From Gracilaria domingensis (Eukaryota > Rhodophyta > Florideophyceae > Gracilariales > Gracilariaceae), in the NCBI GenBank assembly GCA_022539475.1, contig VCMS01000028.1, forward strand, positions 30,534-94,533: DNA of 64,000 nt. The letters run 5' to 3'. Positions 1 through 54,880 of this stretch are shown piece by piece. Below the pieces are notes generated by a model, which worked only from the letters and a program-made list of their open reading frames with translations, ran no database searches and was not told where the DNA came from. The position numbers and the translations under genes are program-made. Numbering within the stretch: the first letter of the stretch is position 1; each line of letters starts with the position of its first letter.

Positions 1-143
1 AGTACACTCATTCCACTTCCATGTACAAGCGTACTCCGCCAATACACGTGGACCAGCGGCGCCAACGTACCGCGGCCGGGGTGTAGCGAAATCACTGCGC
101 GGACGGCGTGTTTTGGCAGGTCCCGGGAAGGCACCGGAATGTT

Positions 144-445
144 GCGATTTTATGCCCGCGGGCGAGGGGGGGTCGGTCGTGTTAGGGTACCTACCCTAAC
201 ACGACCGGACCCCCCCGCCCGCGGGCATAAAATCGCACATTTTTCAAAAAATCGCCCAAAACGTGCCCGCGGGCCGGGGGGGTCGGTCGTGTTAGGGTAC
301 CTACCCAAAAATCGTCACCCTCCGGAGACCTCCCAAAACACTCCTCCCGGCACTTCTTGTACCTACCCTAACACGACCGGACCCCCCGCCCGCGGGCACG
401 TTCTGGTCACATTCCGGCGCCTTCCGGAGACCTCCCAAAACACTC
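144..445. repeat. GC-rich palindrome array between divergent promoters
   Basis: Inverted arms built from a GCCCGCGGGC core, a G/C run and a GTGTTAGGGTA/TACCCTAACAC centre. The clearest palindrome is about 144-236, centred at 190-191. Partial arms follow at 254-307 and 360-399, with CCGGAGACCTCCCAAAACAC blocks between them. The same array in copy 2 (31340-32150) is much longer and arranged differently. Likely to form cruciforms; its role is unknown. Confidence 0.8.
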
Positions 446-589
446 CTCCCGGCACTTCCGGCAGTGATTTCGCTGCACACGCCGTACACATATATCAAAC
501 TAGAGAAAACTAGCGCTTCACACCCACTTGATCCGCGACTTTTAGCACAATACGGGACCGTTGCAATAGCTCCGAATCGCGACGTGGCC

Positions 590-746
590 GACACGCGACG
601 CTATCGCTCCGACACGCGACGCTATCGCTCCGAGCGGACACGGACACGGACGAGACTGGCAGTGCGCTGGGAGGAGCTGCCGAAAGCGGGGGTGCCCAGC
701 GTAAGTCGCCATTTAAAGGCTCGCCTCCGTTGTTTGCGCTGAAGCG
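590..746 (+). promoter_or_regulatory. Probable promoter of the methyltransferase-SET gene
   Basis: A 21-bp unit is repeated in tandem at 590-610 and 611-631. A GC-rich block of about 100 bp follows and ends in a TATA-like TTTAAAGG about 35 bp before the ATG at 747. The same block occurs in inverted orientation upstream of the divergent basic-protein gene in copy 2 (30980-31080). Sharing by two divergent genes is the reason for calling it regulatory; no transcription start is visible. Confidence 0.55.
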
Positions 747-3158
747 ATGGATTCCACCGATGTTGGAGAGGAGATACATCCTATCGACATGAGTGCTCCG
801 CCTCCGGCGTTCCATGCATATGTCAGACTTTTCTTGGTTCTTCGCGATGCTTTGGCAAACAGCGATGGAGGCCCTGATCGGCCACGGGACGTGGGGTTTA
901 GAGGGTTAATAGAGTTCTGCGCCGAGAACTATAAGGATATTCCGGAGGCAAGGAAGATGTTTGAGGAGGCCACTAACTCCAAGAACCTGCAGAACTTGAC
1001 ACTGCAACAGCTGCGAAAGAGTGTTGTGAATAACAAACCTGTGGAACAGCGATATCTTGTAACGAAGCTTCTTGACAAGAAGGACGGGGATGAGGACCAG
1101 AGACTGCGCGATTTTTTCCTTCTCTCTATGGATATGGGTATATACCTACCGGTGCGATGCCTGGTTGGTTATTTCATGACCAGGAGAAAGCAGGTTCTGA
1201 AGACGACAGTGTTCATCCCACCAACAGCTGTGAACCCATTTGAGGTCGTTATATACTTATCATACCTCGGCCACATAATGGGAGAGAACGACAACATCCG
1301 AATGATGAAGAAGAAACAACCGAAAAAGAAACGAAAAGTGAACCATGCACCAGCTGTGTACATACCCACTTTTACGTCGTTCTCCAAAGACAACTGTGAT
1401 CGACTGGGATTCGGTATCAGTGAGGTCGTATGGGCATGGAGTTGTTTTGCGGCTCATCTTGGATACACGAACGTTCAGCACATGGTGAAACCATACATTT
1501 ACATGAATATGCAGACGTTGAAGTATACAGCGCTAGAGACACGGGAGTCTGGTTATGCCCCGCCGAGCCAGAGTACTCGATTCAACACAAAGGATGTGCC
1601 ACAGAGCAGTACTAGTGGATCGGTGGAGACCTTGAGTGATGAATGCGATACAAACCTGCGAATACTGGCTAAGGAGTTTTTGACAGACCTCGAAACCATA
1701 TGCACCCACGATAGCCTCTATAGCTTACGGGTTGATCAGATGAGGAACTGGATAGAGTTTTCGGAGATACGGATGGATACCGTATCTAGCTCTGACTCCG
1801 GTGAGTTGCCTGCTCGATTTCAGAAGTTTTCGGAGTTGCTATGGAAACCGATACAGGATATGCGTCATGCGGCAGGGTTCCATGTCGGCATTCACGCGAA
1901 ACCTGATATTGAACTGACGAAAACCCCTAAAACTTCCGGTAATGCCGAACCTTCTTCGACCAAGTCTGCCCCACCCCCACCTCGTCGAGAGTATATGAAC
2001 CTCGTGAGCTCCGATAGCGACGAGTTCGAGAAGCCGGTGAATCTTGCGGAGCATGAATCTCGGGTTGCTGGTTACAACATCCAAAAGACTGGTATTGAGC
2101 CGCCCATGAAGGGGATATCCAGTCTCCTTCGAATGAATATGGACAAGGTGTGGAAGGGGATGAGAAAGTCACACTTTGTAGCGTACAACTGTGACATGAA
2201 GGACCTGAGGCACACACACGAAACGTTTGTGAATCAGAGTGAGATTTTATGGGGTGAGGCACAGCTTGTCCTAACAGACCCTCCCTTTAACACTCGAAGG
2301 AAGAGGAACAAACGGAATAGTGGTCACGATGTCTTCAGTGAGGAAGACATGATCCGTACGGCTGACTTAATAAGTTCCGCGCTTCGGTCAGGTGGGCACT
2401 TCATTATATTCTGTGCCATGGCACAGTTTCATGTGTGGCACAGGATACTTTCGGAAACGGCGAGTACGAAAGATGAAGCTGGAAGCGAAGGTAAACCAGA
2501 ACTCATGCCTTCGTTTAAAGTGGATGCGAATCCACTGGTGTTCATCCGGGATCGCAGTAATGTTGGAGGGAATCCACGGAAGTTTGGGATACAGCCCGTA
2601 ACGGAGTACGCCGTTCATGGGGTGAAGCGTGGATTGCGACCATCGGAGGAAGCCAGTCTTACTCCATTTGAGGAGAACAATTTCATTCCTTCCACTTTCC
2701 CGGCTAACAGGAATGTAATTGACCGGGTGCCCAAACCGAGGGCGGGGGAGTGGTTGACATGGAAGGTACATGAGCCAGGTAGCTCAGTACCAGGTGGGCA
2801 GTACATAAGACCGGAGCAGAAGTCGAGGGAGTTGATGAAGGAGTTGATATGTCGCTTCACAAGACCGGGTGATCTTGTCATGGACATGTTCGCGGGAACT
2901 TTTTCTACGGGTATGGCGTGCCTATCGCTGACAAAGCATAGGAAGTTCTTGGGGTGCGAGAAGAATAGGCCATGTTTCAGCCATGCGAAGCACCATCTAA
3001 CGACTCTTATGGCCGAAGTTATTCGGGGGGGAAGAATGACATCCTGGTTGAACAGGAGGTGGTGGATGCGGCTTCAACGACCTATGAACGGGTTCCACAT
3101 CGGGACCGAGGTCGGCTTGAATGGGAGGCTCCATTTGGTTACCCCCAGTACCAAGTGA
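747..3158 (+). CDS. Transposon-encoded DNA methyltransferase (beta-class N6A/N4C type), N-terminal part of a probable MTase-SET fusion
   Basis: The C-terminal half has the permuted beta-class order. Motif IV is DPPF (residues 511-514). It is followed by a region with a conserved EQKSRELM-type motif X and then the SAM-binding motif I, DMFAGTFSTG (713-722). DPPF favours adenine-N6 over cytosine-N4 methylation, but specificity is inference. Residues 192-198 read PKKKRKV, a classical monopartite nuclear localisation signal, so the protein should act on nuclear DNA. The N-terminal ~450 residues are unrecognised. The start ATG follows a promoter block shared with a divergent gene. The last ~45 residues (after about 3020) look like out-of-frame sequence beyond a G7 run; reading in another frame leads into the SET region. 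Copy 2 keeps only the first ~640 residues. Confidence 0.85.
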   Translation: MDSTDVGEEIHPIDMSAPPPAFHAYVRLFLVLRDALANSDGGPDRPRDVGFRGLIEFCAENYKDIPEARKMFEEATNSKNLQNLTLQQLRKSVVNNKPVEQRYLVTKLLDKKDGDEDQRLRDFFLLSMDMGIYLPVRCLVGYFMTRRKQVLKTTVFIPPTAVNPFEVVIYLSYLGHIMGENDNIRMMKKKQPKKKRKVNHAPAVYIPTFTSFSKDNCDRLGFGISEVVWAWSCFAAHLGYTNVQHMVKPYIYMNMQTLKYTALETRESGYAPPSQSTRFNTKDVPQSSTSGSVETLSDECDTNLRILAKEFLTDLETICTHDSLYSLRVDQMRNWIEFSEIRMDTVSSSDSGELPARFQKFSELLWKPIQDMRHAAGFHVGIHAKPDIELTKTPKTSGNAEPSSTKSAPPPPRREYMNLVSSDSDEFEKPVNLAEHESRVAGYNIQKTGIEPPMKGISSLLRMNMDKVWKGMRKSHFVAYNCDMKDLRHTHETFVNQSEILWGEAQLVLTDPPFNTRRKRNKRNSGHDVFSEEDMIRTADLISSALRSGGHFIIFCAMAQFHVWHRILSETASTKDEAGSEGKPELMPSFKVDANPLVFIRDRSNVGGNPRKFGIQPVTEYAVHGVKRGLRPSEEASLTPFEENNFIPSTFPANRNVIDRVPKPRAGEWLTWKVHEPGSSVPGGQYIRPEQKSRELMKELICRFTRPGDLVMDMFAGTFSTGMACLSLTKHRKFLGCEKNRPCFSHAKHHLTTLMAEVIRGGRMTSWLNRRWWMRLQRPMNGFHIGTEVGLNGRLHLVTPSTK

Positions 3159-3882
3159 TGCCTGGACATATTACTCAGTTCCTAGGAAGATACTGGAAGG
3201 ACTGGGACTTTGTCGACAAGTGTGGAGAGCGTACTGTAGATCTTTGGGAGGGGAAGTACCGAGGAGCTCTGAATCTTATGGATATGCATATGCTGTTGAC
3301 TGTTGAAGCCAATCGCTATCGCTTACATATAGCATCTTCTAAGATCCGACATCCCCGTGCTGGTATGGGGGTGTTCACGGAACATAAGATATTGGCTGGG
3401 GAAACTATCTGTCATTTCTATGGAACTTTGGTATACACGGATCTGACGAACCGGAAGGAAAGACACTTAACGTATGGAAGTGGCTGTCTCGGAGCAACTC
3501 CAGTGCGGTACAAGTTGTTTTCTATGATGGTCACTGTGACTGGTACGGAGTTTCTGCACCTGAGGAACAGACCAGGACAGGCTCAGGATAGAAAGGAGAG
3601 CGAAGTCTACATTGTCCCGGCGCCTTTTTGTATCGGGGGCTACATTAACGACGCCGATATCATGCCGAGGATCCCGATTTATCGGAGCCCCGGTCAAACA
3701 GGACTCGAAGTGCCAATGTGCAGGTGGTGGAAGCGAAGTCCGTGATACAGTTTAAGTCAGACCTTTCTAACTATGCTCTACTTCGTTGTAGAGCAGTAAG
3801 AGATATTGAGAGGGGCGAAGAGTTGTATTTCAACTACGGAGAGCAGTACGCCTGGGACTGGGCTCTGACATTGGAGCAATAG
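2972..3882 (+). pseudogene. SET-domain protein (histone lysine methyltransferase-like), frameshifted; probably fused to the upstream MTase
   Basis: From about 3340 the reading gives a SET N-terminal strand (HPRAGMGVFTEHKILAGETI) and then GGYIND. After a frame change near 3650-3660 it continues through KSDLSNYALLRC and RGEELYFNYGEQY to a stop at 3880-3882. GG-IND and ELYFNYG are typical SET cofactor and catalytic motifs. Two frame changes are needed, one at the G7 run near 3026-3032 and one near 3655. Both have the direction expected of a one-base deletion. The ATG at 2972 lies in sequence that codes for the MTase C-terminus in the other frame, so I doubt it is a real start and favour one MTase-SET polypeptide of about 1040 residues. 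Whether the breaks are mutations, assembly errors or recoding is unknown. The region is deleted from copy 2. Confidence 0.75.
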
Positions 3883-4134: not shown

Positions 4135-5352
4135 ATGGGTATAACGCCGAGAAAGCGAAATAGTACGCAGCGGAACAAGAGTGGACAGAAGAAGAGAAGA
4201 GCATCGGATGATACGAATCAGGCTACAAGCACCGCACTTCCTAAACGGAAGTCGTCCTCGACGAAGGAGAGAGTCAGTGGGCGTCCTTCTACAGGACTCT
4301 CTCGCCCATCTCGCAGCGGAGCGTCTTCCGGGATTGCGTCAAGAATTCGTGGATCAGCGAACGATGTCGTGCCGTCAACTGCCGATAATGCAAATCGTGC
4401 ATCTGTCTCTGCTCCTCAAGAAGATGAGGTAACTCGGCCCAGCGGGTCAGGACAGGAGGCCATGACAACTGGAACCGAAGAGGTTCGTATGACACCAAAA
4501 CCTTCATGTCCCCGGCCGATATCGAAGACCGGAACTACTGGGGCGCGGGTTACGCCGCCCAGTGGATCTGGACAACAAGGGACGATGACGAGAAGTCGTG
4601 AGAGTCCTAGTATATTAAGATCGTCACGTCCATCCCTCTCTTCTAGAACTGGGGCCGCTATGAATCGTATCATGCCTCGCAATGGGTCCGGACAAGGGAG
4701 AAAGACAATAAGAAATCGAGAGACAACTGATAGACGAGTTACTTTTCGACCTTCCCCTCTTTCCAGAACGGGGGCCGTTGCAGCTCGTACGAGGCCCAAT
4801 TCATCTGATATACCATGCCATGGAGGAGGACATACACGGGAGTTGGAGCTCGGAGCCGTGCCAAGGGTGGACACAGAACGCCTGCAGCCTCTCGTGGCTA
4901 AGGCTATGGCACATGAGGATAGTTCCGATAACGAAATAACACCGAATCCTGCGGCATTACCGGGGCCTGTCGCCGAAGAAGCTAGGGAAATAACGGAAGA
5001 TATCCAAACTGGTGTGAATTCAAGCTCTATGAACAGACCTGATCTTTTAAATGAACTGAATTGCTTGAAAGAAAAGGTTAAGACGCTACAAGAGGACTTG
5101 ATGGTTCGGGGAATTCTAGTGAAGGTCGCCCAAGAGCAGAGTACGGCTTTGAAAAAGAGGCTTGAAGAGAAGGATCTAGTCATTGAAGGGCTAAGAGGGG
5201 CACTGAAACAGGAGGGAGATAGGAGTACACGTGCTGGTGAACCTGGGCAGACAGGTCGAAAGAAGCATAAAATTGAGGTGTGCGACGAGTTTCGAGGGGT
5301 TGCTCGAGCAGTGTATCACAATGCTGACGTGGGCAAGGAGAGAAACAAGTGA
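4135..5352 (+). CDS. Basic, Ser/Arg-rich repeat protein with C-terminal coiled coil, unknown function
   Basis: The 405-residue reading starts at the ATG at 4135, right after a pyrimidine tract; the in-frame stretch back to 3922 is low-complexity translation of that tract. The N-terminus is strongly basic (RKRNSTQRNKSGQKKRR), consistent with a nuclear or DNA-binding protein. The middle holds about three imperfect repeats of ~37 residues marked by SGSGQ and SRTGA. Residues ~303-360 form a charged coiled coil. No family was recognised. The 3' end overlaps the next ORF in another frame, so the two could be one split gene. The gene is absent from copy 2 because of the internal deletion. The divergent basic protein at 30919-29969 has a similar low-complexity Ser/Thr/Lys style, without clear homology. 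Confidence 0.6.
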   Translation: MGITPRKRNSTQRNKSGQKKRRASDDTNQATSTALPKRKSSSTKERVSGRPSTGLSRPSRSGASSGIASRIRGSANDVVPSTADNANRASVSAPQEDEVTRPSGSGQEAMTTGTEEVRMTPKPSCPRPISKTGTTGARVTPPSGSGQQGTMTRSRESPSILRSSRPSLSSRTGAAMNRIMPRNGSGQGRKTIRNRETTDRRVTFRPSPLSRTGAVAARTRPNSSDIPCHGGGHTRELELGAVPRVDTERLQPLVAKAMAHEDSSDNEITPNPAALPGPVAEEAREITEDIQTGVNSSSMNRPDLLNELNCLKEKVKTLQEDLMVRGILVKVAQEQSTALKKRLEEKDLVIEGLRGALKQEGDRSTRAGEPGQTGRKKHKIEVCDEFRGVARAVYHNADVGKERNK

Positions 5353-6529
5353 GCTATGGCTCGAAGGTGAGTCGCTCACCCGAAATTGGGGTAACCGTGC
5401 CGAGAAGGTGGAAGACGCAACTGAGAGTGGGGAAGGGCTTATTGAGCCGGAGGAAGGTGGTTCATACATGGTTCCTAAAAACCCCGTGGAGCTCTTGGGC
5501 AGTTTTGGCATGTTCACACCGTCGGTAGAGGGGGGGCCAGATGCTTTGCTGAAGAAAATGGTTGAAAGCGAGTTGAAGGAGTTGAGCTGGGAAGGTATTA
5601 GAAAAGCATCTCTTACCGACAGGTGTATACTGGAACTTTGTGCAGATATGTGCCTTAGGCAGAGAATGCGGCAGACCATGAGTGACGTCGTGGGCGTTCG
5701 TAAGAGAAATACGAGGGATAAACTATTTCTGCTCCTGGGGTACGATCTGATTTGGAGAAGAACAAAGCTGGTAGAAGAGAATGCTGACGAACTCACAATG
5801 CAGTTGAAGGAAGCGCAGGAGAACATACCGCGTCTTGACGAAAATGGTGTACCGAACACTTCATGGTGGAGAAAAGCCCCATTTCTTCGTCTAAAGTACT
5901 CCAATGCGGACAATGTCGAGGATATGCCGACGGAAGATCAAGACTTGTTCTTCCGAAACCGTGTCGGGGTACAAGTGCTGAAGGAGTTTATTGGGTATGA
6001 TCTGGAAGACAAGGATACGGGCACCTTTTTAGATGGCACAATACTGTTGCTCGCACGTTTGGACGCTTGGGTGTTGACGGTTGTGAGCCTTCTAAGTACG
6101 GATGTGTCAAGGGGTGGCCAGAGACAGAAACTGTTTACAAAGAAGTTTGCTGAACTGCTACCTCTGTGTTTAAAGAATGTTCTGGGGGATGTTAGGCAAC
6201 ATGTCTTGAGGACCAATTCCAGCGAGTTTCATAATTTTGGAACGACAACGGAAGATTGGACTAAGGTTCTTGGTAATGACATGAGAGAGGCTACATTTGG
6301 GTATCGAATGCCGTCGAACGGAAGACTTTACCTCACTGTGAAAGAACAATTTTTTATTGACAGTGTGAGCCGAAGATTGGGGTCTATTAGCGATTGCTTC
6401 GTTGGTGAATGCGAGGAAGGGGATATGGAGTTCAAGGAAATGGACATGAACGATTTAGGAATTAACACAGGATCACAAGAAAAGGCACCACAAGGTGAAC
6501 ATGTAGAGGATGGAGCCCTTAATGTTTAA
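5321..6529 (+). CDS. Transposon accessory protein of unknown function, about 402 residues
   Basis: The first ATG is at 5321, overlapping the upstream ORF by 32 bases; the frame is open upstream to 5231. The protein is acidic and predicted helical, with a dense helical stretch rich in Lys/Glu/Leu around the middle. No known domain was recognised. Copy 2 carries a near-identical version that lacks this ATG and has a one-base deletion near 35241, so it is broken there. The stop TAA (6527-6529) overlaps the stop of the convergent transposase gene in TTTAA. High conservation between copies implies a recent common source but does not prove function. Confidence 0.65.
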   Translation: MLTWARRETSELWLEGESLTRNWGNRAEKVEDATESGEGLIEPEEGGSYMVPKNPVELLGSFGMFTPSVEGGPDALLKKMVESELKELSWEGIRKASLTDRCILELCADMCLRQRMRQTMSDVVGVRKRNTRDKLFLLLGYDLIWRRTKLVEENADELTMQLKEAQENIPRLDENGVPNTSWWRKAPFLRLKYSNADNVEDMPTEDQDLFFRNRVGVQVLKEFIGYDLEDKDTGTFLDGTILLLARLDAWVLTVVSLLSTDVSRGGQRQKLFTKKFAELLPLCLKNVLGDVRQHVLRTNSSEFHNFGTTTEDWTKVLGNDMREATFGYRMPSNGRLYLTVKEQFFIDSVSRRLGSISDCFVGECEEGDMEFKEMDMNDLGINTGSQEKAPQGEHVEDGALNV

Positions 6530-9500
6530 GGCTGTACAAGATCAACGTGCTCAGTTGGTCCTTCATCTGAATCATGATAGAATCGATTGATGTAGAATCG
6601 GTGTTGGAACCATTGAAGTGGAGGACAAAAAGGTGGAGCAGGGTAGTTTGATCGAACAACATGGACAGTTCCCTGTAGTGCAGAAGCCGGAACCATTCCG
6701 TACCAAGGAGTTAACTCTACGATAGTCTCCGCTTTGGAATGACGAGGGAACGGAAGAGTGTGGTTCTTTTCATCGTTTGTAGCCCACCGTAAAGATATGC
6801 ATTTCAATATGTGGTCGATGTTTGTTGCGGGGGGTAAAACCTCGAAATACCGGACGAATGCCACCTCTGGTGCGGTAAGTGCAGAATCAAGGAGAGATAT
6901 TCGAATCAGAGCGACTACCTGGGCAACCCAAGTCTCTGAATCTTCTCCGCTTACCAATACAGTGGAAAACTTTGGCTTTCTACTGGGACCAAATGCTGGA
7001 GAAGCGAAGACACGTTGGATGATGGGGTATTTGGGTCGTCCCAGCTTAAGTGCCTTAGAAGACGAATCGAAGTGTTCAAGAGTCGGAACGAAACCGCCTT
7101 TCACGACGGCCGAATTCACCAGAGTTATCCTTGTCTTTTCTGGGAAGTATGTAATAGAGTGCTCATCCAGTGTTTCTTTCACGAGACTGAGGAAAGGAGG
7201 AAGGGCCTGTTCACCAATTTGATCAAGAATCGACCTTGTGTCCGTACTTGAGAACATTTCTCTAACAGCAGTCCATGTTTTTGAACTGGACATATTTGAA
7301 ACACAATGTTGAAGAGCTCGTAAAGTGAAAGAACGCCCTCTCATTGCAAACCGAGGAAGCTGTGTGGAAGTTCCTGGTAAACCTGGATTACGCTGGTAAG
7401 GAGTATTGCCATTCCATTGCTTTCTAACATGTCCGTGCTCAATGGAGCGAATAGTCTCCTCCACAGCCGTTGCTGTTCTTCTGGACGTCTTTTTGTAGTG
7501 TCTTTTAAATAGCAGGTGTGCATGTTCGTATATGCCTGCGTCGTAATACTTGATACTTCCCAGACGGCGAATATCGTCCACGAGATGATCGAGAAGATGA
7601 AACTTCAGAGTTCCCAGTCTGGAGGGATGAAAATCCGCCAGAGTCTTTGTTGCGGAACGCTTGAAGGCTTCAATCTCCGAACTAAGACACAGGAGAGAGC
7701 TTTCAGTCCAATACGGGTCACGATTGTATCTGAATAAGGTCGAGAGCAAGTCCGAGTACTGAGAGAAAACGGTTGTGATTGGGGCAACGTCCTGTTCTCC
7801 ACAGCATATGTCAAAGAATGCTCCTATGAAGGGAAAGACCATGTCAAGTGCTTTGTACTTTTTGGCCTCCAGCATTCCACGGAGACCGTCTTTCGTGAAG
7901 ATACCATTCAAAGATTTGCCTTTCTCCTGCGTGGAGAAATCGATATGTAAACCTTTGGCAGGAGAATCGCGTTCTATGGCAGCTAGAATTGCGTTTGCAT
8001 GGTTGAGGAGTTGGGTGCGTATCGTTCGAAATGAACGCGATGCAGATGTTCCTATTGTGGTGCACAGGGTGTCTGACTGCAGTCTCTCGATTGTGGCCGT
8101 TTTTATCAACTTTGAGATGCCGAGATGCAAGTTGTGTAATGGTTCGAATAAGAACAGACTGTATGGAGACAATCCCGGGATCATTCCAAGGCTTACGGAA
8201 GTTTCGAGGAACGAAGGAATGAGAGATATGGAATTTGAACGCATCAGAGTATCCGCTTGAGATCTCCTCTCCCTCGCACGACGTGGACGTCTTTCCGCCT
8301 CGTCTTTTTGTGCATGTTGCAAGATAGCTGTGTATGTCTTTCGGATGCTTTTCGTGTGCTTTTGAGAACGTCCGTTGAATGAGGTGGGAATAGGACTGCA
8401 TAAAGATGAGCGAGGGGCTTTGCATCTATGACACGGGCTTTCCGTTTTGGTCCCATGAAGAATGGACAGAATGTCCTTAGCCTCAGGAATATCCGCACAA
8501 TAACTTGCAAGCAGAGGATGGCACACTCGACTTAGTTTGTCTTCGCCGATGAACTGAAAACCTTTCTGCGTGAGATTTAGAATGGGCTCCAGGACTTGAC
8601 GAAGAGATTCTTGAAGGATTTGCATCCTGGACTCGCGTAGAGACTTGCTAGAAACAAATGGCATTGCGTCTGCTTCAGATGCGGAAACCTCGATCAGTGT
8701 GGTAGGGAAGTATGCCAATACTGTGAGGTCATCACGGATACACTTACGGCGAAGCTGGTCGGAGAAGTTGAGAAATATGAGGTGAAGAGGATAGGCGGTA
8801 ACCGATGTTTGCTTTAGAGTTGTTGAAGACTTATCGGTGTATACCTGCAGAAGACCTACGAAAGATTCACTGTAACTTATTTCTTGGGAGTACCACACTA
8901 TTCTACTATCCAAAGAGCCCATGACCATTTCCTTAAGTTTTGAGGTGGCGTCTCTTGCGAGAGAGCCGGACATGGGGTGAGATATTTTCGTGGAGTGGGT
9001 CTGAGGTATAGGGTGGAAGAATGTGTTTTCGTTGTTAGCCAACTGGAGCTGTTTCACAAGTGTCTGAACGGGGTCTCTCGTGTAGAGGGTGGCGCTGAAC
9101 TTACATCCTTCTGGCGAGACAGTTCTGCGATTGAAACCGTCCTTTGAGGCGTATCGTTCGAAAATGGCCTTCTTCAGTTCTGTACAGCGCTTGGAACTTG
9201 TTATGGTCTCGTTGAATCGCTTTTGCGAGAATCGCGGGTCCCGAAGTAGCCCAATTAGCTCGTCCGCCTCACGATGACCAAGGTTGGAAGCTACTGAAGC
9301 CAGACAAACCGTGAGATAATCCATATGCAAATCACCGAGGGCCTCCTCAGAAGGCACTGGGCGGGAACTGCTTCCGTGTTCTCGCTTTAATGACGCGGGA
9401 GCCGGGGAAGGAGAAACACAATGCGAAGTGTCCGGAATGGGAGGGGCGCACGGAGTGGGGTCGACGATGTCCTCGGACACTGGAGGCTCGGGAAGGCGAC

Positions 9501-9801
9501 AAGGGGCAGTGACCGTTTCGGAAGATGCGGGCGCGGGTGCGGAAAGCTTGAGACGCTTGCTTCTCCGAATGGGCCGGCTATTGTCGTCTTCCAGCGCTGC
9601 TTTCAGACGAAACGGGCAATGGTTGACATGCTGTTGAAGGGATAAGACTCCTCGGCGAGTAACGAAGGGGCACCCACGCTTCTTATGTGTACAGTAGTAG
9701 ACCATGGGAAGAAGAACTGAACGAGAAACGACGACAAAGACTGCAAGGGAAGGGCGTCCGAAGGGAGAAGGAGGTGGAGCGACAGTCAAGATCGACGTCA
9801 T
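6526..9801 (-). CDS. Plavaka/CACTA-like DDE transposase
   Basis: 1091 residues. The N-terminus has a zinc-finger-like C37-x6-C44-x13-H58-x3-C62 pattern, followed by a basic patch. The catalytic core resembles the Plavaka branch of CACTA-type transposases: VYTDKS at 320-325 supplies the first Asp. A CHRC knuckle lies at 457-460 and EPLHNLHLG at 553-561. KFHLLDHL..DDIRRLG followed by YEHAHLLFKRHY (733-769) probably supplies the last Glu (E759). The position equivalent to the usual Asp in the D-x-x-H-x-x-x-LG motif is Glu553; I cannot say whether this affects catalysis. An internal ATG at residue 33 (CCATGG context) could be the true start. The copy 2 protein (1088 residues) is nearly identical and intact, so this is the best candidate for the active mobilising enzyme. 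Confidence 0.85.
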   Translation of the reverse strand: MTSILTVAPPPSPFGRPSLAVFVVVSRSVLLPMVYYCTHKKRGCPFVTRRGVLSLQQHVNHCPFRLKAALEDDNSRPIRRSKRLKLSAPAPASSETVTAPCRLPEPPVSEDIVDPTPCAPPIPDTSHCVSPSPAPASLKREHGSSSRPVPSEEALGDLHMDYLTVCLASVASNLGHREADELIGLLRDPRFSQKRFNETITSSKRCTELKKAIFERYASKDGFNRRTVSPEGCKFSATLYTRDPVQTLVKQLQLANNENTFFHPIPQTHSTKISHPMSGSLARDATSKLKEMVMGSLDSRIVWYSQEISYSESFVGLLQVYTDKSSTTLKQTSVTAYPLHLIFLNFSDQLRRKCIRDDLTVLAYFPTTLIEVSASEADAMPFVSSKSLRESRMQILQESLRQVLEPILNLTQKGFQFIGEDKLSRVCHPLLASYCADIPEAKDILSILHGTKTESPCHRCKAPRSSLCSPIPTSFNGRSQKHTKSIRKTYTAILQHAQKDEAERRPRRARERRSQADTLMRSNSISLIPSFLETSVSLGMIPGLSPYSLFLFEPLHNLHLGISKLIKTATIERLQSDTLCTTIGTSASRSFRTIRTQLLNHANAILAAIERDSPAKGLHIDFSTQEKGKSLNGIFTKDGLRGMLEAKKYKALDMVFPFIGAFFDICCGEQDVAPITTVFSQYSDLLSTLFRYNRDPYWTESSLLCLSSEIEAFKRSATKTLADFHPSRLGTLKFHLLDHLVDDIRRLGSIKYYDAGIYEHAHLLFKRHYKKTSRRTATAVEETIRSIEHGHVRKQWNGNTPYQRNPGLPGTSTQLPRFAMRGRSFTLRALQHCVSNMSSSKTWTAVREMFSSTDTRSILDQIGEQALPPFLSLVKETLDEHSITYFPEKTRITLVNSAVVKGGFVPTLEHFDSSSKALKLGRPKYPIIQRVFASPAFGPSRKPKFSTVLVSGEDSETWVAQVVALIRISLLDSALTAPEVAFVRYFEVLPPATNIDHILKCISLRWATNDEKNHTLPFPRHSKAETIVELTPWYGMVPASALQGTVHVVRSNYPAPPFCPPLQWFQHRFYINRFYHDSDEGPTEHVDLVQP

Positions 9802-10073
9802 GCTGAGAACGGAGAATATATTTTGAGTTTAAATCACGTGCTTTCGTTCAAAAAGGAACGTAGGTACACGTCGACCTCAACACAAGGGTGTACTTCTCGT
9901 ATTATCTACCACTGGTTATAAACCTGTGGTTTCCCAACGTTGTACGCTGTACACTTGTCCAATCTCGCACAGAAAAATAAATCTCTTCCCTTCGCCGCCG
10001 CCGCCGCGCCTCCGACGTCCGAACTTCCGTTACCGTCGTGAGCCATGCCATCGATATCATCGCGTTATACTCC

Positions 10074-11666: not shown

Positions 11667-11798
11667 ATTCTGGACGACCCAAGCAATTATCTGCAAATTT
11701 TGAAATAATTGATCTCGATATTTTTTCAAAAAATTTACTGGACGACCCTTGCCAATTTCTGGACGACCCTCGCCAAAAACTAGCATCTGCAAGAGACA
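11667..11798. repeat. Subterminal repeats and right terminus of the transposon (copy 1)
   Basis: Three direct repeats with core CTGGACGACCC occur at 11667-11680, about 11736-11747 and 11757-11770. They are followed by CTAGCATCTGC and the terminus AAGAGACA at 11798. Clustered subterminal repeats are typical transposase-binding sites of CACTA-like elements. The inverse of CCAAAAACTAGC near this end resembles GCTAGTTTTGG near the left end of copy 2. Confidence 0.75.
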
Positions 11799-13152
11799 GA
11801 TGCGGGTTCGGCTCTGGACTAGTTTCGCCTACGCGAAGTGCACCACTCCTCCTGGAGAGTCACCGCGTACGGTACGTTCTAGCTCCATCCCTCGGGATCA
11901 TTCAGGCAATTCTGATCATTTGTGGCCATTGCACTCGGACTAATTCTGTCTTCCGACACCTTTCATTGCGCAGATACCTGCTTAACCACAAGTGGTAGGA
12001 CTACCAACTCTGTATAGAGATCTTTGCCGCGTGGGCTGAACACACGTCTCCGTCACCCGCCGCCGGGTCTGTTGCCGCTTTCCGCACGCCCCGCCGGGGG
12101 TTTCTTCTTGTTTTCCCCTTTTTTCCTTTTTTTGCTTAGGGTGTCCACTGTTCACCCTATAAGAAATTTTTTAAATTTTGTGAACGTAACATAAAGGAAT
12201 TCGGATGTGCCGGACCCTCACATTACACTCGTTCAGCCTTCCGCGCGACCTCCTTTTTGACACGGTGCATATTAAATTCTCAATTTTTTCAATTTTTTGA
12301 GTGTCATTGGAGGGTCCATTATGGTTGTTCTCGTTGCACATTATGCTATTGTGAGTGTCATGTACCACCAGCACTATCCTTCGACACTCCTTCCATATTC
12401 TTATCGTTTTCTGTTTTGACACCCTAGGTGGGGCTGTATGGCACGATTTTATTGATCCATTTCACTACCAAGCCCTATAAGAAATTTTTGCAGCTTGCGG
12501 ATCACGCGCGGATGTAAATTGGATAGTTTTTCAAAAATAGGAGCGCACTATGTGATGGAATGGAGGATTAAAATCGCCTCCTATGACCTCATTTAGGGTG
12601 CCAAAAGGGAGTGTGCTGTGAGTTTAGGACGAGTGGGAAAGGATAGTGCAAGTGTCATAACGCACTCAGAACAGCCTATCATGCAATGAGAACAACCTGA
12701 GCACACCCTCATATGACATTCACAAAATTGAAAAAAATTGAATATTTAATATGCACCGTGCCAAAATGGAGGTCGCGCGGAAGGCTTAACGAATGTAATG
12801 TGAGGGTCTACAACATCCGAGTACCTTCATGTTACGTTCACAATTTTGAAGAAATTTCTTATAGGGAAGCGCTCTCCAATTTTTGAAAAAGCCTCCAATT
12901 AATATCCGCGCGTGCTCCACAAACCACAAGACTTTTTTATAGGTCACTGGTGCCGCCCACCACTATCGTCTCCGTTTCCGGATCTTTGCCTAGCCTGTTC
13001 CTCGTCAACCTCCGAGGTATATCCCGAGGCACGGGCGGTCTTACACATGCCATTCTCCGTGCACGGAGGGCTCATTCCTTCAGTCTACCTCCCTTAGGGA
13101 GCAAGGACTCGAACGCCTTGAGTGTCTCTCCGGTTCCCGGGTTTGCACTACA
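11799..13152 (+). mobile_element. Partial gypsy-type LTR (LTR F), split by a MITE
   Basis: 11803-12143 aligns, with divergence, to the internal part of the element A LTR: GTTCGGCTCTG, the CACCGCGTACGGTACG block and CTCTGTATAGAG. 13005-13152 aligns to its 3' end (CACGGGCGGTCTTACAC, CAAGGACTCGAACGCCTTGAG), finishing in CACTACA. A MITE-rich insertion occupies about 12134-12930. The 5' part of this LTR would lie left of transposon copy 1, outside the window. No coding sequence is present. Confidence 0.65.
12155..12866. mobile_element. MITE with ~170-bp terminal inverted repeats
   Basis: The left end CCCTATAAGAAATTT and its inverse at 12866 continue into inverted arms of about 170 bp that include TTGTGAACGTAACAT and GCCTTCCGCGCGACCTCC. 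A third copy of CCCTATAAGAAATTT at about 12475, and matching inverted sequence around 12490-12540 and 12867-12920, show that a second related MITE is nested with it. No ORF; internal sequence unassigned. Confidence 0.75.
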
Positions 13153-25195: not shown

Positions 25196-25672
25196 TGTTC
25201 CCTTCGTCTGTGTTCTGCAAAGTGGAATATAGTCTGTTCGCTTTGGAAACTAAGCTAGTTTTGGGGCTATTTGGGGCGCGCGAGGGGGTAGCAGAGGCGG
25301 GCACTCAAAATATTAAGAAATTTTGGAATATTAAATTCCATTTCGCGCAGTTTAGTTCTTGGGTCCCCTAGTTTTCGTAGAGGTTCTACTTCGCCGCACC
25401 ACCCCATTCACTCTTTTCCGCGACCCTCTCTCAAAACTGCACTCGTGCTAGTTTGCGTTTCCATTTTCTCCCATGTTGCAATGCCAATCGCAACTCATCC
25501 CACCTCAATCATCCCATCACTTCTTCCCAGTCCACACCACCCCCGCTATTTACCCATTTCTCGCCCATCACGCGTTCCCATCCTCTCTCTCCGTCTCCGC
25601 AAACGTCATTTTGTGGAAGTCAGGTGGACAACCCTCCCCCTTCTCGTATACCCGCCTCGCCCCAAAACGGCT
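25196..25672. repeat. Left terminal region of transposon copy 2
   Basis: Starts TGTTCCCTTCGTCTG. Contains GCTAGTTTTGGGGC about 45 bp in, and CTTGGGTCCCCTAG further in, which resemble in inverted orientation the right-end CCAAAAACTAGC and CTTGGGTCGTCC motifs. No gene. Confidence 0.6.
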
Positions 25673-26600
25673 TCAAATCCCTCCCATCCTTCTCTCCTCC
25701 TGTCCCCTCAGAATCCCCTTCGCAGTCCGCGCTACCTCCGCCGCACTTCTAAACCCAGTCACCACCGGAGCTCCCACTCCCTCCCGCGGCACCTCCTCCA
25801 ACACCTTCTTCATCTCCTTACGCCTCTTCTTCAGACGGCTCTTCCCATCCCCAACCCCACCACCCTTTGTCTTCGGTGCACAGGAGACCCCTTCTGCACC
25901 GCCACCCTTCCCACACTTCCCTTCTCCGTCTTTCCCTCCACACCTCCTTTCACCGTCTCCTCTTCCACCTATCTTTGCCTCTTGCACAGCTCCTTCACCT
26001 CCTTCTCCAGCACGTCCAACCTCTCGTTCAGAACCCTATTCTCCTCCCGCAACTCTCCAACCTCCCTTCCCGCACACTCCACTATCCCATACACATGATT
26101 TCTCATCTCCACTCCCAATATCGACAACGAATTCCGCAGGCTCGAAATCGCCTCAACCGAAACACCACTACCACCCCCACTCAGCACCACACCGCCCATT
26201 TCCGTTACAATCTCCACAATTCCATCGTCCAGTTGCTCCTTCATCCCAACCCCAACATCCCCACCCTCGCCTTTATCTCCCCCACAAACCGCATCTCCCT
26301 GTCACCCTCTCCGTCCCCACTCTCTATCTGGTCTCCAACCTCTAACTGACTCAGATGCACCGCACCCCTTCTCTCCATTGCGACCCCCTCCACCTCCAAT
26401 TCTACCCCCTTCTCCACCTCATCACCATCCCCTCTCCTCGCCTCACACTTCTTTCCTTCATCAGCCACTTCCTTCTTCTGCGACATCCGACCAGCCGCCG
26501 TAATCACGTCTTCTTCCCGCTTTGGTGACGGCGTCTGCGGTACCTCCTTCCCCTCCAACAGCGCCCACAGCTCCTCATCCTTCACGTATCCGTTCGACAT
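25673..26600 (-). pseudogene. Acidic coiled-coil protein gene, frameshifted
   Basis: Reading leftward from the ATG at 26600 gives MSNGYVKDEELWALLEGKE and a Lys/Glu/Gly-rich segment to a TGA at 26241. The next frame starts at an overlapping ATGA (26244) and contains a coiled coil (REENRVLNERLDVLEKEVKE). A third frame continues to 25673. I read this as one gene with two frame changes. The strong C+T bias of the plus strand here is the mirror of this purine-rich gene. Family not recognised. Confidence 0.4.
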
Positions 26601-26929
26601 CTTCAGAAGAAGAAGTAGTAGTTGGATCGAAGTTTCCGCTGTGATACAGTGCAATCGAGCTAAACTGTGCTGTCCACCCCCACTGTCCAACCACACGGGC
26701 TATATCCAGCACCATGATTGTCCCTGTTTCCCTCATCCCATTTCCCGCCAAAAATTCTACTGTACACCTTCGCACCTTCCACTATTTGAGCGCCACCTCT
26801 CTGTCTCCTCTTTCGCGCTCACATAATCCCCACCCACCTCGCCTCGACCGGCGATATTTTTCTCTTCCACCATAACCCCACTCGATGGTTATAGCAAAAC
26901 AGGAAGATATTGCCAGTGGAGGCAAGCTA

Positions 26930-27195
26930 GGGACTAGTGATTGTACTTAGAGTTGCTCACCCTCTGTCTCGACTGGGGGCATGTTCTTCTTCCGTCACAT
27001 CCTGTGTGGGTTGTGACAAAAAAAGAATATGTCACCACTCGACACCGGATGGGTAACAATGATAGCACGTAGAGTAGTTCATCCTCCCTTTCAGCGTCCA
27101 CTGGGGATATATTGATGTTCTCTCACATCCTTTCCCGGTTGTGATACAAGAGAAATACATCTCCAATGGACACGGAGAATATAGTCGTGATAACA
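26930..27195. repeat. Two degenerate tandem units with internal hairpins
   Basis: Units at about 26945-27055 and 27070-27180 share the order CTCACCCTCT/TTCATCCTCC, CACTGGGG-like, TCACATCC, GGTTGTGA and CACCGG/ACACGG. Each contains an inverted arrangement around GTGACA/TGTCAC. The flanking 26697-26929 shows no gene. Confidence 0.4.
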
Positions 27196-27234
27196 GGTAA
27201 AGGTAACAATGTAATAAACAATAAATTTATGCTA

Positions 27235-27558
27235 CTATCTATAACCAACCTTTCGAAAACCAGCTATGACATGAGCTGGGTTACTCGAGCCAAAGATGGC
27301 AGATCCTGCAATTGAAATGTTTGCACCGGCCTTCACTACTCCTTTCACAGTACTCAGTCCAATACCCCCATCCACCTGTATCCCTATTCTTGGGTACAAC
27401 TCCCTTGCATGTCGCACCTTATCAAGAACACCCTCCATAAACGCCTGTCCTCCAAACCCTGGCTCCACCGTCATCAACAATAACATGTCTACAACTCCTT
27501 CCTTCATAAGTGCTTCTACGACCTTTATAGACGTATTCGGGAGCAACCCAACTCCATC
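27235..27558 (-). pseudogene. Ribulose-phosphate 3-epimerase, C-terminal fragment
   Basis: About 107 residues match the C-terminal half of RPE. LLPNTSIK corresponds to the substrate-side loop, MTVEPGFGGQ is the family signature, VDGGI carries the catalytic Asp, and AGSAIFG is the phosphate-binding loop. The N-terminal half (first metal-binding and catalytic residues) is missing. Upstream in the reading direction, an in-frame stop lies just before the fragment, and a possible continuation (RIAIIKRMELG) is in another frame. It could instead be a last exon behind an AAAAG acceptor, but no earlier exon is visible. In the intact enzyme the reaction interconverts ribulose-5-phosphate and xylulose-5-phosphate. 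Most likely a captured host-gene fragment. Confidence 0.75.
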
Positions 27559-27958
27559 CTTTTAATTATGGCAATCCGAGTGAAGCTATAAAACCCGTTC
27601 ACGTCATTTATGAAGCCAAAATGGCTCCTTTCATCCTGTATTCAAGCTCCCCGTAACTTGTACTTTACAACTACTTTACAACTCAGGTTCGAAATCAGTT
27701 TCATTCATTGTACACTTTCTACTCTTCCACCTACTTTTCATAAAACATCATCACACTTTGTGGCTTGTCGTCTCATACAAGCCCTATCATTCATTCAGTA
27801 CAATCACATATCATACATTTCGCTCACTTTCACAAAGTGAACCATGTTCCCGTTCTGCGCTTCCCAACCCTTTGTACTTAAGTATCACTCTTTACCCCAG
27901 CAGTTCTCCGCCCCATCTTCCATTTCTATCGTCACACAAAAACATTCGAACACTTGCA

Positions 27959-28861
27959 ATGAACTCCCAGTCCGACATGCCTCCCACTCCGCCTCCGAGT
28001 CCCAGATACTCTGACGTCCCTCAGGCCTCATCTCCCGCCCGAAGGACTCGGGCCGTTATTGTTGGAAGGGGGCGTATAGGTACCATGCTGGCGAACGAAG
28101 AAGATACGGTCATTTCCGCACACGAATTCTGCAGCATGGCTGCTACCTCTCATCTTTCTGATGTACCGATACTAGTTTGTGGAAGAACGAACACCCTGGA
28201 GACCGTAATTCAGGCTTGCTCTTATTCGCTCAGAGAGAATCTCGTTTTCTTCCAGAATGGAGACATCATACCATTGGTTTCGAAGCTCGGTGTGGACAAA
28301 TGTTCAAAAGTTGTCCTATACGTTGGTGTCCCCTCAAGAAACGCAGCTCCGCAGGATGGTGTCACTCCTCAAAGTCCGGATGGTCTCACTGTCGCAACAG
28401 GAAAGTGGGCCTCCAACGTTGCAGACAGGTTTAGGTCTATGGGTCTCACTTGCGGGGTTGTCGACGAAGACACATTTCTCGTAAGCTATTATGAGAAGCT
28501 CGTGTGGCTATCAGCGTTCAACATCGTCGGGGCCTCAAGAGGTTTCATTCCTATGGACGTAGTCGCTACGGAGTGCAGTACGGTTGTGCTCACAATAATG
28601 AAAAAGCTGTTGAAGATAGTTTCGCTTAAGACAGGTACTACTTTCAACCTGGAAGAGACCGTTGGGCGAATTCTTGCATATGGGAAAACTCTCGTTGGCT
28701 TCCCTACTTCTTTCTCGGACTTTCAGTTTAGGAACACGTACTTCTACGACTTTTCCCGCCAAGAAAGAAACATCGTAGGCTTTGACCCCGCTCCTTTTCA
28801 TACAAACTACGTCAACGTTGTTAAGGAAAATTTATCCCGCTCCCCATTCTCCCAGCTTTGA
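27959..28861 (+). CDS. Ketopantoate reductase-like NAD(P)-dependent protein (transposon cargo)
   Basis: 300 residues from the ATG at 27959. After a Pro/Ser-rich leader (~35 residues) comes a Rossmann start, RAVIVGRGRIGTM, with a glycine-rich turn. ENLVFFQNG and EKLVWLSAFNIVGA fall where ketopantoate reductases have their N-x-G and K-x-x-x-N motifs. The family reduces 2-dehydropantoate to pantoate in pantothenate synthesis, but related proteins act on other substrates, so the substrate is uncertain. The gene is uninterrupted, unlike its neighbours, suggesting recent capture or selection. It lies between an RPE fragment and a HAD fragment in the transposon's left arm. A pyrimidine-rich upstream leader is present. 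Confidence 0.65.
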   Translation: MNSQSDMPPTPPPSPRYSDVPQASSPARRTRAVIVGRGRIGTMLANEEDTVISAHEFCSMAATSHLSDVPILVCGRTNTLETVIQACSYSLRENLVFFQNGDIIPLVSKLGVDKCSKVVLYVGVPSRNAAPQDGVTPQSPDGLTVATGKWASNVADRFRSMGLTCGVVDEDTFLVSYYEKLVWLSAFNIVGASRGFIPMDVVATECSTVVLTIMKKLLKIVSLKTGTTFNLEETVGRILAYGKTLVGFPTSFSDFQFRNTYFYDFSRQERNIVGFDPAPFHTNYVNVVKENLSRSPFSQL

Positions 28862-29487
28862 GGTTAGAATACATGACTTTTCGGTGTTGTAAACCTTTTA
28901 GAGATAGTTACACAAAAAAGTTACTTTATCGAAATGACCTGTTCCTATTACATTACTTATATTGTTCGTCCTTCTGTGGTTCAAATATGCCCCTTTAAAT
29001 CTTACATCCCCTATCACTAATACCTGGCTAAGTTTTTGCTAGATGGAAAAGGGTCATTCCACATCATTAAAGTGCACGATACTAGTAACAAAACAAGTAC
29101 AAAATTGTGATATTTCTGAAGAACTAAGCCTTCGCAATACTTGGGGCACCCGTATAAAGTAAGGTAAACCTTTTATGGGTTTCAACCCTTAATGGAGGTT
29201 GTTTTACTGATCTTGATTTCTAAGCTCATGTTGAAGATATACATAGTTTTCTTTACCCACATGAACCCATACATATAATTTATGACTAAATCATCCTTTC
29301 TTTACTGCAAATCGATGCAAAAGCTTCTCGTCGTAGTAACGTTTTAAAACAGTACTACAATACCCGTATATGGTCGTTCTTAGACTCTTTTTATACTACG
29401 AAACACCTTGTGAACATCAATCACATCCTTCTCATTCGTATACCCACACTTATGTGCAAAACGAACCCTTTCAAAAGCTTTCAAAAC
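28862..29487. other. AT-rich intergenic stretch, no gene seen
   Basis: Low-GC sequence between the reductase stop and the HAD fragment. Short ORFs only; it probably contains the polyadenylation region of the reductase and the promoter of the HAD gene. No repeat or RNA gene recognised. Confidence 0.5.
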
Positions 29488-30000
29488 ATGTATAGCTCAG
29501 AAGTTAGATCCCAAGAAGTAGCTCCTCAGCAGCTGGCTAACGAAATATTCGAAAATGGCTACGCCGTGATTAGTGATATTGACGGTACTCTGAAAAGAGC
29601 TGGGGAGAACATTCATGCCGAAACAGTCAAATGCATGAAGTACATCAATGCACGCGTTGGTTTCGGAGTTGCTACTGGGCGAGATATAGAGGATGCCGAG
29701 AGTTTCATGGAGCACCTGCGTGGCTACAATTTTGGAATCTCTTGAAACCAAGCCGCACGGGTGAGATTATCCAATGGTACCGAAATTGATCAGGACCTTG
29801 ACAGGGAAGGCTACGAAAGATGTGCAGCCGAACTTGAGAGACTTGCACTCTACTTAAATGAATCGCACGAACTTCACGAAGAGCGTCAACAAGCAGTTGT
29901 GAGCACTAGAAAAGACAGTGGACTCCCTAACTTCACGTACAATGGACTGTCGAAGTGGAAAACAGAAGTTAACTCCGGTATTTCAAAAGTGTTTGATTGA
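29488..30000 (+). pseudogene. HAD-superfamily phosphatase, N-terminal fragment with in-frame stop
   Basis: From the ATG at 29488, VISDIDGTL carries HAD motif I (DxDxT), followed by GFGVATGRDIEDA, the Cof/sucrose-phosphatase-like strand. A TGA after NFGIS (29743-29745) interrupts the frame. The same frame then continues with LSNGTEIDQDLD to 30000. Motifs III and IV are absent, so only about half of a typical HAD protein is present. The tail overlaps the convergent basic-protein gene by 32 bases. The TGA could derive from CGA. Substrate unknown. Confidence 0.65.
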
Positions 30001-30919
30001 GGTTCACCTTTGGTACCTTCTGACGAATTCGTCTGTACGTCTTGCTCCGAGTACGTGTCCCTTGTGTTCCAGACCGCTCGCCAGAAACACTTGAACGTGC
30101 CATTCTTGCGGACAGAAGCACAACGTCATCGTCCTGCTGCTCCGCAGTTTCTGGTGCAGTTTGGGGTACAGATGGACCATCTCCTTGCGCGGATTGCGCA
30201 TCCGCGTCTGGAAGGGGACCTTTCATGATCTCATCTTCCTCCTCTTGCACAGCCGTCCCCTGCTGAACCGTCTGTTTCGACGCAGAAGTTCCCCTTGTGT
30301 CGACGGTCTGATTCATCGCAGGAGAAGCCCTTTTCGATGCAGTGGGCTTCGTAGCGGAGGTAGACTTTGTTTGACCTGTCCGCTTCGTAGCTGGGGATGC
30401 TCTCGTCTCCATAGACCGCTTCGTAACAGACGACGGACCTGCCCGCGGAGGTGCTACTGATGCGCTACCTCTCGGTGTTGATGAACTTCGAATTGGCTCC
30501 GTGCGGCTTGTCGGCGTCATCACCTCACTCATAGCGCTCACCGTTCCTCGCTTCGACGCCGGAATTCTGGCTGCCACCGGTTCCATCATTTTCTCATCCC
30601 AAGGAGCGGCCGTCCGGAGATCCTGGATATATTGTGGAAGATCCAGGCCCTCCGCCCGGTAAGGGTAGAACGTCTGACCGCTTCGACTGATGAGAATATT
30701 ATGAACCACCACAAGACCTGGGTCCAATTGCTTCCCGTGCAACTCGCGGCGTAGAACACTTCCAATTCCATGCAACAACGCTTCCCCGACTATCACCTTT
30801 CCTTCATCCTCAATATCCATCTGCAGAGAAACCCGCATTCCACCTTGCAATAATCGAGTGCTCCGCCGAGTGCGAGGAGTCACGCTTTGCGCACGCTTTC
30901 GAACACGAGTTGGCTTCAT
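29969..30919 (-). CDS. Basic, low-complexity repeat protein transcribed divergently from the methyltransferase
   Basis: 316 residues. The start is very basic (MKPTRVRKRAQSVTPRTRRS). A ~100-residue globular-looking segment (residues ~25-115, with GEALLHGIGSVLRRELHGKQ and LDLPQYIQDLRTAAPWDEKM) follows. Then comes a long Ser/Thr/Lys/Ala repeat zone (TKRSxxTxAS-type units) and a basic C-terminus. Composition suggests a nuclear chromatin or DNA-binding protein, but no family was recognised. Its upstream block (30980-31080) is an inverted copy of the methyltransferase promoter, so the two genes are probably co-expressed. Copy 1's counterpart would lie outside the window. Confidence 0.6.
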   Translation of the reverse strand: MKPTRVRKRAQSVTPRTRRSTRLLQGGMRVSLQMDIEDEGKVIVGEALLHGIGSVLRRELHGKQLDPGLVVVHNILISRSGQTFYPYRAEGLDLPQYIQDLRTAAPWDEKMMEPVAARIPASKRGTVSAMSEVMTPTSRTEPIRSSSTPRGSASVAPPRAGPSSVTKRSMETRASPATKRTGQTKSTSATKPTASKRASPAMNQTVDTRGTSASKQTVQQGTAVQEEEDEIMKGPLPDADAQSAQGDGPSVPQTAPETAEQQDDDVVLLSARMARSSVSGERSGTQGTRTRSKTYRRIRQKVPKVNLNQTLLKYRS

Positions 30920-30979
30920 GTTGAACAGCTATTGCAGTGAAAGGTGTATATCAACAATACGCTCGCTCTGGACGATACA

Positions 30980-31080
30980 ACAACGGAGGCGAGCCTTTAA
31001 AAGGCGACTTACGCTAGGCACCCCCGCTTTCGGCAGCGCCTCCCAGCGCACTGCCAGTCTCGTCCGTGTCCTGTCCGTGG
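30980..31080 (-). promoter_or_regulatory. Probable promoter of the basic-protein gene (inverted copy of the MTase promoter)
   Basis: On the minus strand this block matches about 32352-32452 over roughly 100 bp with few mismatches, including GGACGAGACTGGCAGTGCGC and the TATA-like TTTTAAAGG, and stands a similar distance from its ATG. Confidence 0.6.
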
Positions 31081-31339
31081 CCGCTCGCACACTGATTGTA
31101 CGCTCTAGAGTCGTGGAGTTCGCGCAATGATGACTCACGCGAGCAATGGTCGCGTTCTCTAATCATGCTCTTCAAATGCTTTGCATAATAGTCAAGAGTA
31201 CACTCATTCACTTCCATGTACAGCCTACTCCCGCAAATACACGTGGACAGCGGCGCCAACGTACCGGCGGCCGGGTGTAGCGAAATCACTGCGCGGCGGC
31301 GTGTTTTGCGAGGTCCCGGGAAGGCACCGGAATGTGGCC

Positions 31340-32150: not shown

Positions 32151-32306
32151 CCCAAAACACTCCTCCCGGCACTTCCGGCAGTGATTTCGCTGCACACGCC
32201 GTGCACATATATCAAACTAGAGAAAACTAGCGCTTCACACCCACTTGATCCGCGACTTTTAGCACAATACGGGACCGTTGCAATAGCTCCGAATCGCGAC
32301 GTGGCC

Positions 32307-32463
32307 GACACGCGACGCTATCGCTCCGACACGCGACGCTATCGCTCCGAGCGGACACGGACACGGACGAGACTGGCAGTGCGCTGGGAGGAGCTGCCGA
32401 AAGCGGGGGTGCCCAGCGTAAGTCGCCATTTAAAGGCTCGCCTCCGTTGTTTGCGCTGAAGCG
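32307..32463 (+). promoter_or_regulatory. Probable promoter of the truncated methyltransferase gene, copy 2
   Basis: Same as 590-746 of copy 1, including the tandem 21-bp unit (32307-32327 and 32328-32348) and TTTAAAGG before the ATG at 32464. Confidence 0.55.
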
Positions 32464-54872: not shown

Positions 54873-54880
54873 AACCGGTT

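Follow-up and report, generated by a model that had tools for sequence, protein, structure and literature searches.

A giant Plavaka transposon of the red alga Gracilaria domingensis carries a gene that joins a DNA methyltransferase to a SET domain

Why would a transposon carry a DNA methyltransferase domain and a SET domain in one gene? The question is raised by positions 747 to 3882 of a 64,000-nucleotide (nt) stretch of DNA from the red alga Gracilaria domingensis (GenBank assembly GCA_022539475.1, contig VCMS01000028.1, positions 30,534 to 94,533; hereafter, the window), where an N6/N4 DNA-methylase domain comes first, a SET domain follows, and two frame breaks split the gene. An earlier note, made from the letters of this DNA, had assigned the locus to a transposon and had suggested that its parent might have been a fusion of the two domains. 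We addressed this by comparing the window copy with its relatives in the genome, by measuring selection on the fused gene, and by delimiting the element that carries it.

In the window copy, the methyltransferase part occupies 747..3155 on the plus strand (frame 717-3158, first ATG at 747), and a Pfam scan of this frame finds PF01555 (N6_N4_Mtase) at approximately 2262-2975 with an E value of 2.1e-15. The linker and the first half of the SET domain lie in a frame of their own (2969..3745, plus strand), and the end of the SET domain, which includes the motif ELYFNYG, lies in a third (3649..3882, plus strand). Each SET half, taken alone, scores under the Pfam cut-off of 22.4 bits (13.7 bits, E 0.084, and 21.2 bits, E 0.00041). 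Both domains exceed their cut-offs in L012, a natural, uninterrupted copy and the sole fused copy scanned with Pfam, where one frame of 1055 amino acids (aa) holds N6_N4_Mtase (E 3.9e-15) and SET (E 1.8e-7; 32 bits). The presence and order of the two domains, as described in the earlier note, are thereby confirmed. Relative to L012, the window copy has two one-base length differences, and the 50-base bins in which they fall fit both places where the note had put its frame changes, the G run near 3026 and a site near 3655. The gene at 747-3882 is thus a fusion whose reading frame is broken in this copy.

The fused state is found well beyond L012. All of the genome searches described here scored the best candidates only, and so their match lists are lower bounds. 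With an 813-aa frame as the query, at least 55 copies were scored at 89 to 100% identity; the 1055-aa frame appears in 16 of the 55 listed, and by our count, 9 of those 16 have no stop inside the match. We collected 25 copies and aligned 20, excluding W2, C179, C182, C346, and C564, whose matches do not span the gene. Of the 20 aligned copies, nine stay open for all 1055 codons (counted as a stop-to-stop frame), which supports a continuous methyltransferase-SET fusion as the parent gene, and two more end at codons 1046 and 1040. On a midpoint-rooted tree, the fused state occurs in deep branches (C328, C257, C47, and C171) as well as among young copies.

Searches with the separate domains led to a similar picture. 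The Pfam methylase model and the SET query each returned at least 150 scored matches, the latter at 88 to 100% identity, with 9 of the 150 listed SET matches in 1055-aa frames. For 74 of the 150 listed methylase matches, a SET match lies no more than 1.5 kb downstream in the same orientation, across a gap of 272 to 366 nt (mostly 286 to 292). Fifty-one of these 74 listed pairs share one frame, and in 33 of the 74, the SET frame reaches back across the methylase match; of these 33, 5 list a stop within the SET match, and 3 retain nothing of the methylase domain except its end. The search for homologs with one continuous open reading frame (ORF), which the earlier note had advised, was therefore successful, and SET is neither missing from every other copy nor cut off from the methylase by a stop in the intact ones. 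Among the 76 unpaired methylase matches of the 150 listed are broken copies, the one in the window being an example. A second methylase size class of approximately 684 to 696 nt accounts for 32 of these 76 (e.g., G000:C266:90487-91182 and C12:74729-75424) and may represent another methylase-bearing family without this SET domain. Also, contig G000:C382 has three listed methylase matches, in frames of 1169 to 1170 aa.

Selection was assessed by comparing nonsynonymous and synonymous (N:S) changes with 400 simulations, separately for private changes (seen in one copy) and shared changes (seen in at least two), in the 9 fused copies and in a set of 19 copies from which C50 was excluded because of a run of Ns. 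Shared changes in the fused copies stand at 17 N to 21 S, against 27.8 to 9.1 expected, and none of the 400 simulations was as low; by domain, the ratios are 2:8 in the methyltransferase (1/400 as low) and 2:3 in SET (80/400). In the set of 19, the corresponding values are 18:25 for the whole gene (0/400), 3:10 for the methyltransferase (0/400), and 2:4 for SET (28/400). This depletion of amino acid changes among the shared changes indicates that the gene was under selection during the spread of the element. The signal of purifying selection is clear both across the gene as a whole and within its methyltransferase part.

What, then, is the element? The carrier is a giant Plavaka-family DNA transposon, and the attribution of the gene to a transposon is upheld by a transposase, element ends, and a target-site duplication. 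In copy 1, to which the window gene belongs, the transposase is an 1100-aa open frame on the minus strand (6526..9828), convergent with ORF3, which matches the Plavaka transposase domain PF18759 at an E value of 1.2e-18 (67.9 bits, with a cut-off of 26.3). At least 42 copies of it were scored in the genome at 98 to 100% identity, and 38 of the 42 list no stop. The right end of copy 1 lies at 11672..11802, with subterminal GGACGACCC repeats and the terminus CATCTGCAAGAGACAG. A second copy in the window, on the plus strand at 25205..40577, has both ends and sits within a gypsy pol gene. Its ends were accepted because of the flanks: TT stands on both sides (25203..25204 and 40578..40579), and when the flanks are joined, the gypsy frame continues across them (...MSDCSLGTIGITEHRIDLLPDTRP). 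The duplication was read in this one copy. By our count, 21 of 39 other listed matches start exactly at 25205, 17 start within 5 bases before it, and 1 starts 22 bases later. A different candidate for the left end, C28:22536, was ruled out, as two other copies extend further left with the same sequence.

The inverted ends of the element are short, of the form CGTCTGT...ACAGACG, and have CGTCTGT and some following bases in common; inspection by eye of 100 listed places revealed no inverted partner at a fixed distance, and terminal inverted repeats that are both long and exact are not supported. The full-length element is approximately 23.5 kb, a sum made from parts of several copies, for which the left end of copy 1 was not read and the left 3.7 kb comes from copy 2 only, and which includes the 1,945-base run of Ns that lies within copy 1 directly left of the window (L021:3056-5000). 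Apart from two internal deletions, copy 2 aligns collinearly with copy 1. Motif I of the methyltransferase, the SET domain, and ORF2 were lost in one of these deletions, and the methyltransferase gene of copy 2 is cut off accordingly (32434..34397, plus strand). A 16-mer from the right end, with up to one mismatch, has 269 + 301 = 570 occurrences across the genome (control, 0). This number exceeds that of the scored gene copies in every list and suggests many deleted or nonautonomous derivatives. Other mobile elements are also represented in the window, by hAT transposon remnants at 13745-14989 and 16195-16848 (DUF659 and hAT dimerization domain) and by a gypsy-type retroelement on the minus strand at 50595-57042, in which 52938-54974 matches reverse transcriptase and protease.

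From the left, the assigned genes of the element are a Rossmann-like gene, a HAD-type hydrolase gene with an inverted second copy, a ParB-like gene (minus strand), the methyltransferase-SET gene, ORF2/ORF3, and the transposase gene (minus strand). The first of these, read in copy 2 at 27614..28861 on the plus strand, has no significant family match and owes its Rossmann-like reading to GRGRIG. The hydrolase was found at L046:373-1203 (PF08282, E 1.2e-9), and its inverted second copy, at 1494-2425, scores below the cut-off (E 0.062). ORF2 and ORF3 (4135..6529, plus strand) are overlapping frames at 3922-5352 and 5207-6529, again without a significant family match; in copy C171, they form a single 832-aa frame.

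The ParB-like gene is separate from the methyltransferase-SET gene and divergent to it, and its match to phrog_3264 is weak (E 7e-4). Its start in copy 2 lies at 29969..30928 on the minus strand, and a longer gene exists in copy C465, locus L022. Between the ParB-like gene on the left and the methyltransferase-SET gene lies an array of the palindromes TTAGGGTACCTACCCTAA and GCCCGCGGGC, at 138..458 in copy 1 and 31347..32123 in copy 2. Within the 64-kb window, these palindromes are confined to the two regions of gene divergence, and the number of units varies among the 10 other copies searched. The array may play a parS-like role.

The domains themselves offer some guidance on the likely activity. 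The methyltransferase displays the beta-class order, with the catalytic motif DPPF preceding the S-adenosylmethionine-binding motif I, DMFAGTFSTG, in addition to its PF01555 match. Its solved relatives are DpnA, CcrM, and MboIIA, and the best of them, DpnA and CcrM, are adenine methylases; because of this kinship and the DPPF motif, adenine is the likelier target, and the enzyme is probably an N6-adenine methylase. A structure predicted for the window's methylase piece without an alignment has a mean pLDDT (predicted local distance difference test score) of 30.2. A viral relative is not supported: one scan of viral_contigs yielded none, and the 4 matches among 50,697 phage records are confined to the methylase part (28.9% identity in three of them and 44.3% over 70 aa in the fourth). 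SET enzymes usually have the catalytic motifs GxG, NHS, and ELxFDYG, and the SET part here has GMG, IND at the NHS position, and ELYFNYG. Its best solved relative is KMT2A, a weak match (E 0.0046).

We propose, and would give the idea an even chance, that the fusion gene serves the giant Plavaka transposon as an accessory chromatin writer that keeps the element's chromatin permissive. In this model, one polypeptide with a beta-class amino-methyltransferase domain, probably specific for N6-adenine, and a SET lysine-methyltransferase domain would be brought to element DNA, possibly via the element's ParB-like protein bound to the palindromes between both genes. Once at the element, the enzyme would methylate its DNA together with a histone, or some different protein, close by, and the chromatin of the element would stay permissive for transcription and transposition. 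Elsewhere in eukaryotes, N6-methyladenine (6mA) occurs with trimethylated lysine 4 of histone H3 (H3K4me3) in permissive chromatin, according to the relevant passages of PMC12695648, where that 6mA is made by AMT1, from another enzyme family than the methylase described here. Self-marking against silencing is favored because the relatives of the methylase are of the adenine type, the SET part is nearest to KMT2A (weakly), and 6mA goes together with H3K4me3. The direction of the effect, that is, against silencing or toward self-silencing, is the least certain step. We regard as doubtful a more specific version, in which the transposon carries a self-marking epigenetic cassette: the fusion protein would methylate adenine in DNA, would also place a lysine mark on histones, and would be directed to the palindrome array of the element by a ParB-like partner.

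Several observations weigh against a chromatin-writing role. Motif I has GTF at the GSG position (compare DPFMGSGTTG in DpnA), IND stands in the SET part where NHS is usual, and the match to KMT2A is so weak that a substrate for SET cannot be derived from it. A Pfam scan of the ParB-like gene gave no match over the cut-off. The contrast between private and shared changes is not clean, since private changes, although near the neutral expectation, are slightly depleted too: in the 9 fused copies, they number 126 N to 64 S, against 131.1 to 51.3 expected (18/400 simulations as low), with 44:26 in the methyltransferase (14/400), and in the set of 19, they number 175:86, against 183 to 71.9 (23/400). 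For the SET part alone, the signal is weak, and selection is at most suggestive. Nor do the copies display CpG decay, as 29 of 336 CpG sites and 96 of 1,231 other C/G sites have changed (P 0.65), with no excess of CpG transitions; there is, therefore, no trace of the 5-methylcytosine silencing that the protein might oppose. Finally, many copies are frame broken. Nine of the 20 aligned copies are broken earlier than codons 1040 to 1046 (in C50, C211a, and C323, the start is estimated or beside Ns and the first stop is unreliable, and each has a later length difference), the methyltransferase and SET are in different frames in 23 of the 74 listed pairs, and 33 of the 150 listed SET matches lie in 253- or 304-aa frames, like the known frame-broken copies.

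The same frame breaks, in aligned copies and listed pairs alike, speak for the view that the domains are captured passengers without a present function and that the element spreads without the fusion, as does the open transposase frame of 1097 aa (35574..38867, minus strand) in copy 2, which lacks motif I and SET. We consider this quite unlikely. Shared changes are depleted in amino acid changes to a degree that no simulation reached, and nonautonomous copies are able to ride on the proteins of others. Moreover, C591 and C597 have zero substitutions over their aligned bases, yet just one of the pair reads through; some breaks must then be very recent or be homopolymer consensus errors, and recent slippage or such errors may account for part of the broken copies. 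Another view would give the methylase a role in transposition itself, where it would time cutting through a mark of strand or replication state or would shield element DNA from nucleases, with SET as a binding module. Bacterial elements time transposition by adenine methylation, and selection here is clearest in the methyltransferase part. Still, this reading leaves the in-frame retention of SET in diverged copies unexplained, and we attach little probability to it.

Self-restraint is a further possibility, though in our judgment an unlikely one. Here, the fusion would place repressive marks on the element, in the form of DNA methylation combined with a histone mark for silencing, and thereby limit the element's own activity, much like the N4CMT-SETDB1 loop of bdelloid rotifers in one protein. 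Bdelloids indeed couple a DNA amino-methylase to a SET enzyme in silencing, according to PMC8885841, and N4CMT is likewise a prokaryote-type, beta-class amino-methylase tied to histone marks in a eukaryote, fused to a chromodomain reader rather than to a SET writer and with SPPY in place of DPPF. However, bdelloids use genes of the host to silence transposons, while in G. domingensis, the element itself carries and keeps the gene. In addition, the SET part here is nearest to KMT2A and not to an H3K9 enzyme, even if that match is too weak to decide the matter.

Much of what surrounds this gene has precedents: earlier publications describe giant transposons with accessory genes, transposons of algae whose proteins combine ParB with a methylase, and SET genes carried by further transposons. 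One close case is the 21.5-kb Ectocarpus element Sola1-1_Ec32, which, in the parts of PMC12477816 devoted to it, has an accessory protein with ParB and N4/N6 DNA-methylase domains. Both are giant algal DNA transposons, and both encode a ParB-like domain and an N4/N6 methylase of prokaryote type; the Ectocarpus element is a Sola in which a single protein of 1104 aa unites ParB and methylase, whereas here, the ParB-like gene is separate, the methylase is joined to SET, and the element is a Plavaka. The same source states that red algae have similar ParB-methylase proteins as well as giant EnSpm elements, and the latter (from Bostrychia, as cited there) resemble the present element in their red algal host, giant size, and accessory genes. 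Plavaka transposases, in turn, resemble those of EnSpm, as stated in PMC12730594.

Plavaka giant repeats are described for Amoebidium in portions of PMC11244446. They have many tyrosine recombinases, and the main text of that article does not contain "SET domain" or "adenine"; in the gene models of our element that were scanned, which cover part of its frames, with 1,945 bases of copy 1 being N and the left 3.7 kb coming from copy 2 only, no tyrosine recombinase was recognized. SET methyltransferases encoded by transposons are known from HarbingerS and MuDR of Phytophthora, which belong to other superfamilies, and the passage of PMC12730594 that cites them does not mention a fusion to a DNA methylase. 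As presented in that article's account of fungal elements, PlavakaB of Agaricales also pairs a Plavaka with an epigenetic enzyme, a TET/JBP dioxygenase rather than DNA and histone methylases. There, Plavaka A has termini TGT..ACA and a 2-bp duplication, and Plavaka B has CATCA..TGATG and one of 2 or 3 bp. The 2-bp duplication of copy 2 fits either type, and the termini of our element match neither; for this reason, it was assigned to neither fungal subgroup. A fungal host, which the Plavaka match might suggest, was rejected because the genome has light-harvesting matches, as well as phycobilisome-linker matches on eight contigs in addition to C680, which is probably plastid DNA; these genes mark the host as a red alga.

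Literature searches returned no title or abstract that describes a methyltransferase-SET fusion in a transposon; the Bostrychia elements are known to us via citing text only, and so we cannot claim that the fusion is unreported. The published algal case joins a methylase to a DNA-binding ParB domain, at least as that source depicts it, and SET would widen such marking to histones. A mobile element that fuses a DNA-base writer with a writer of the histone type would serve as a natural experiment on whether transposons can control the state of their own chromatin. In an 18-species survey of 6mA (PMC12695648), the main text contains neither "red alga" nor "rhodophyt", and the fusion gene makes the use of 6mA by red algal transposons a testable question.

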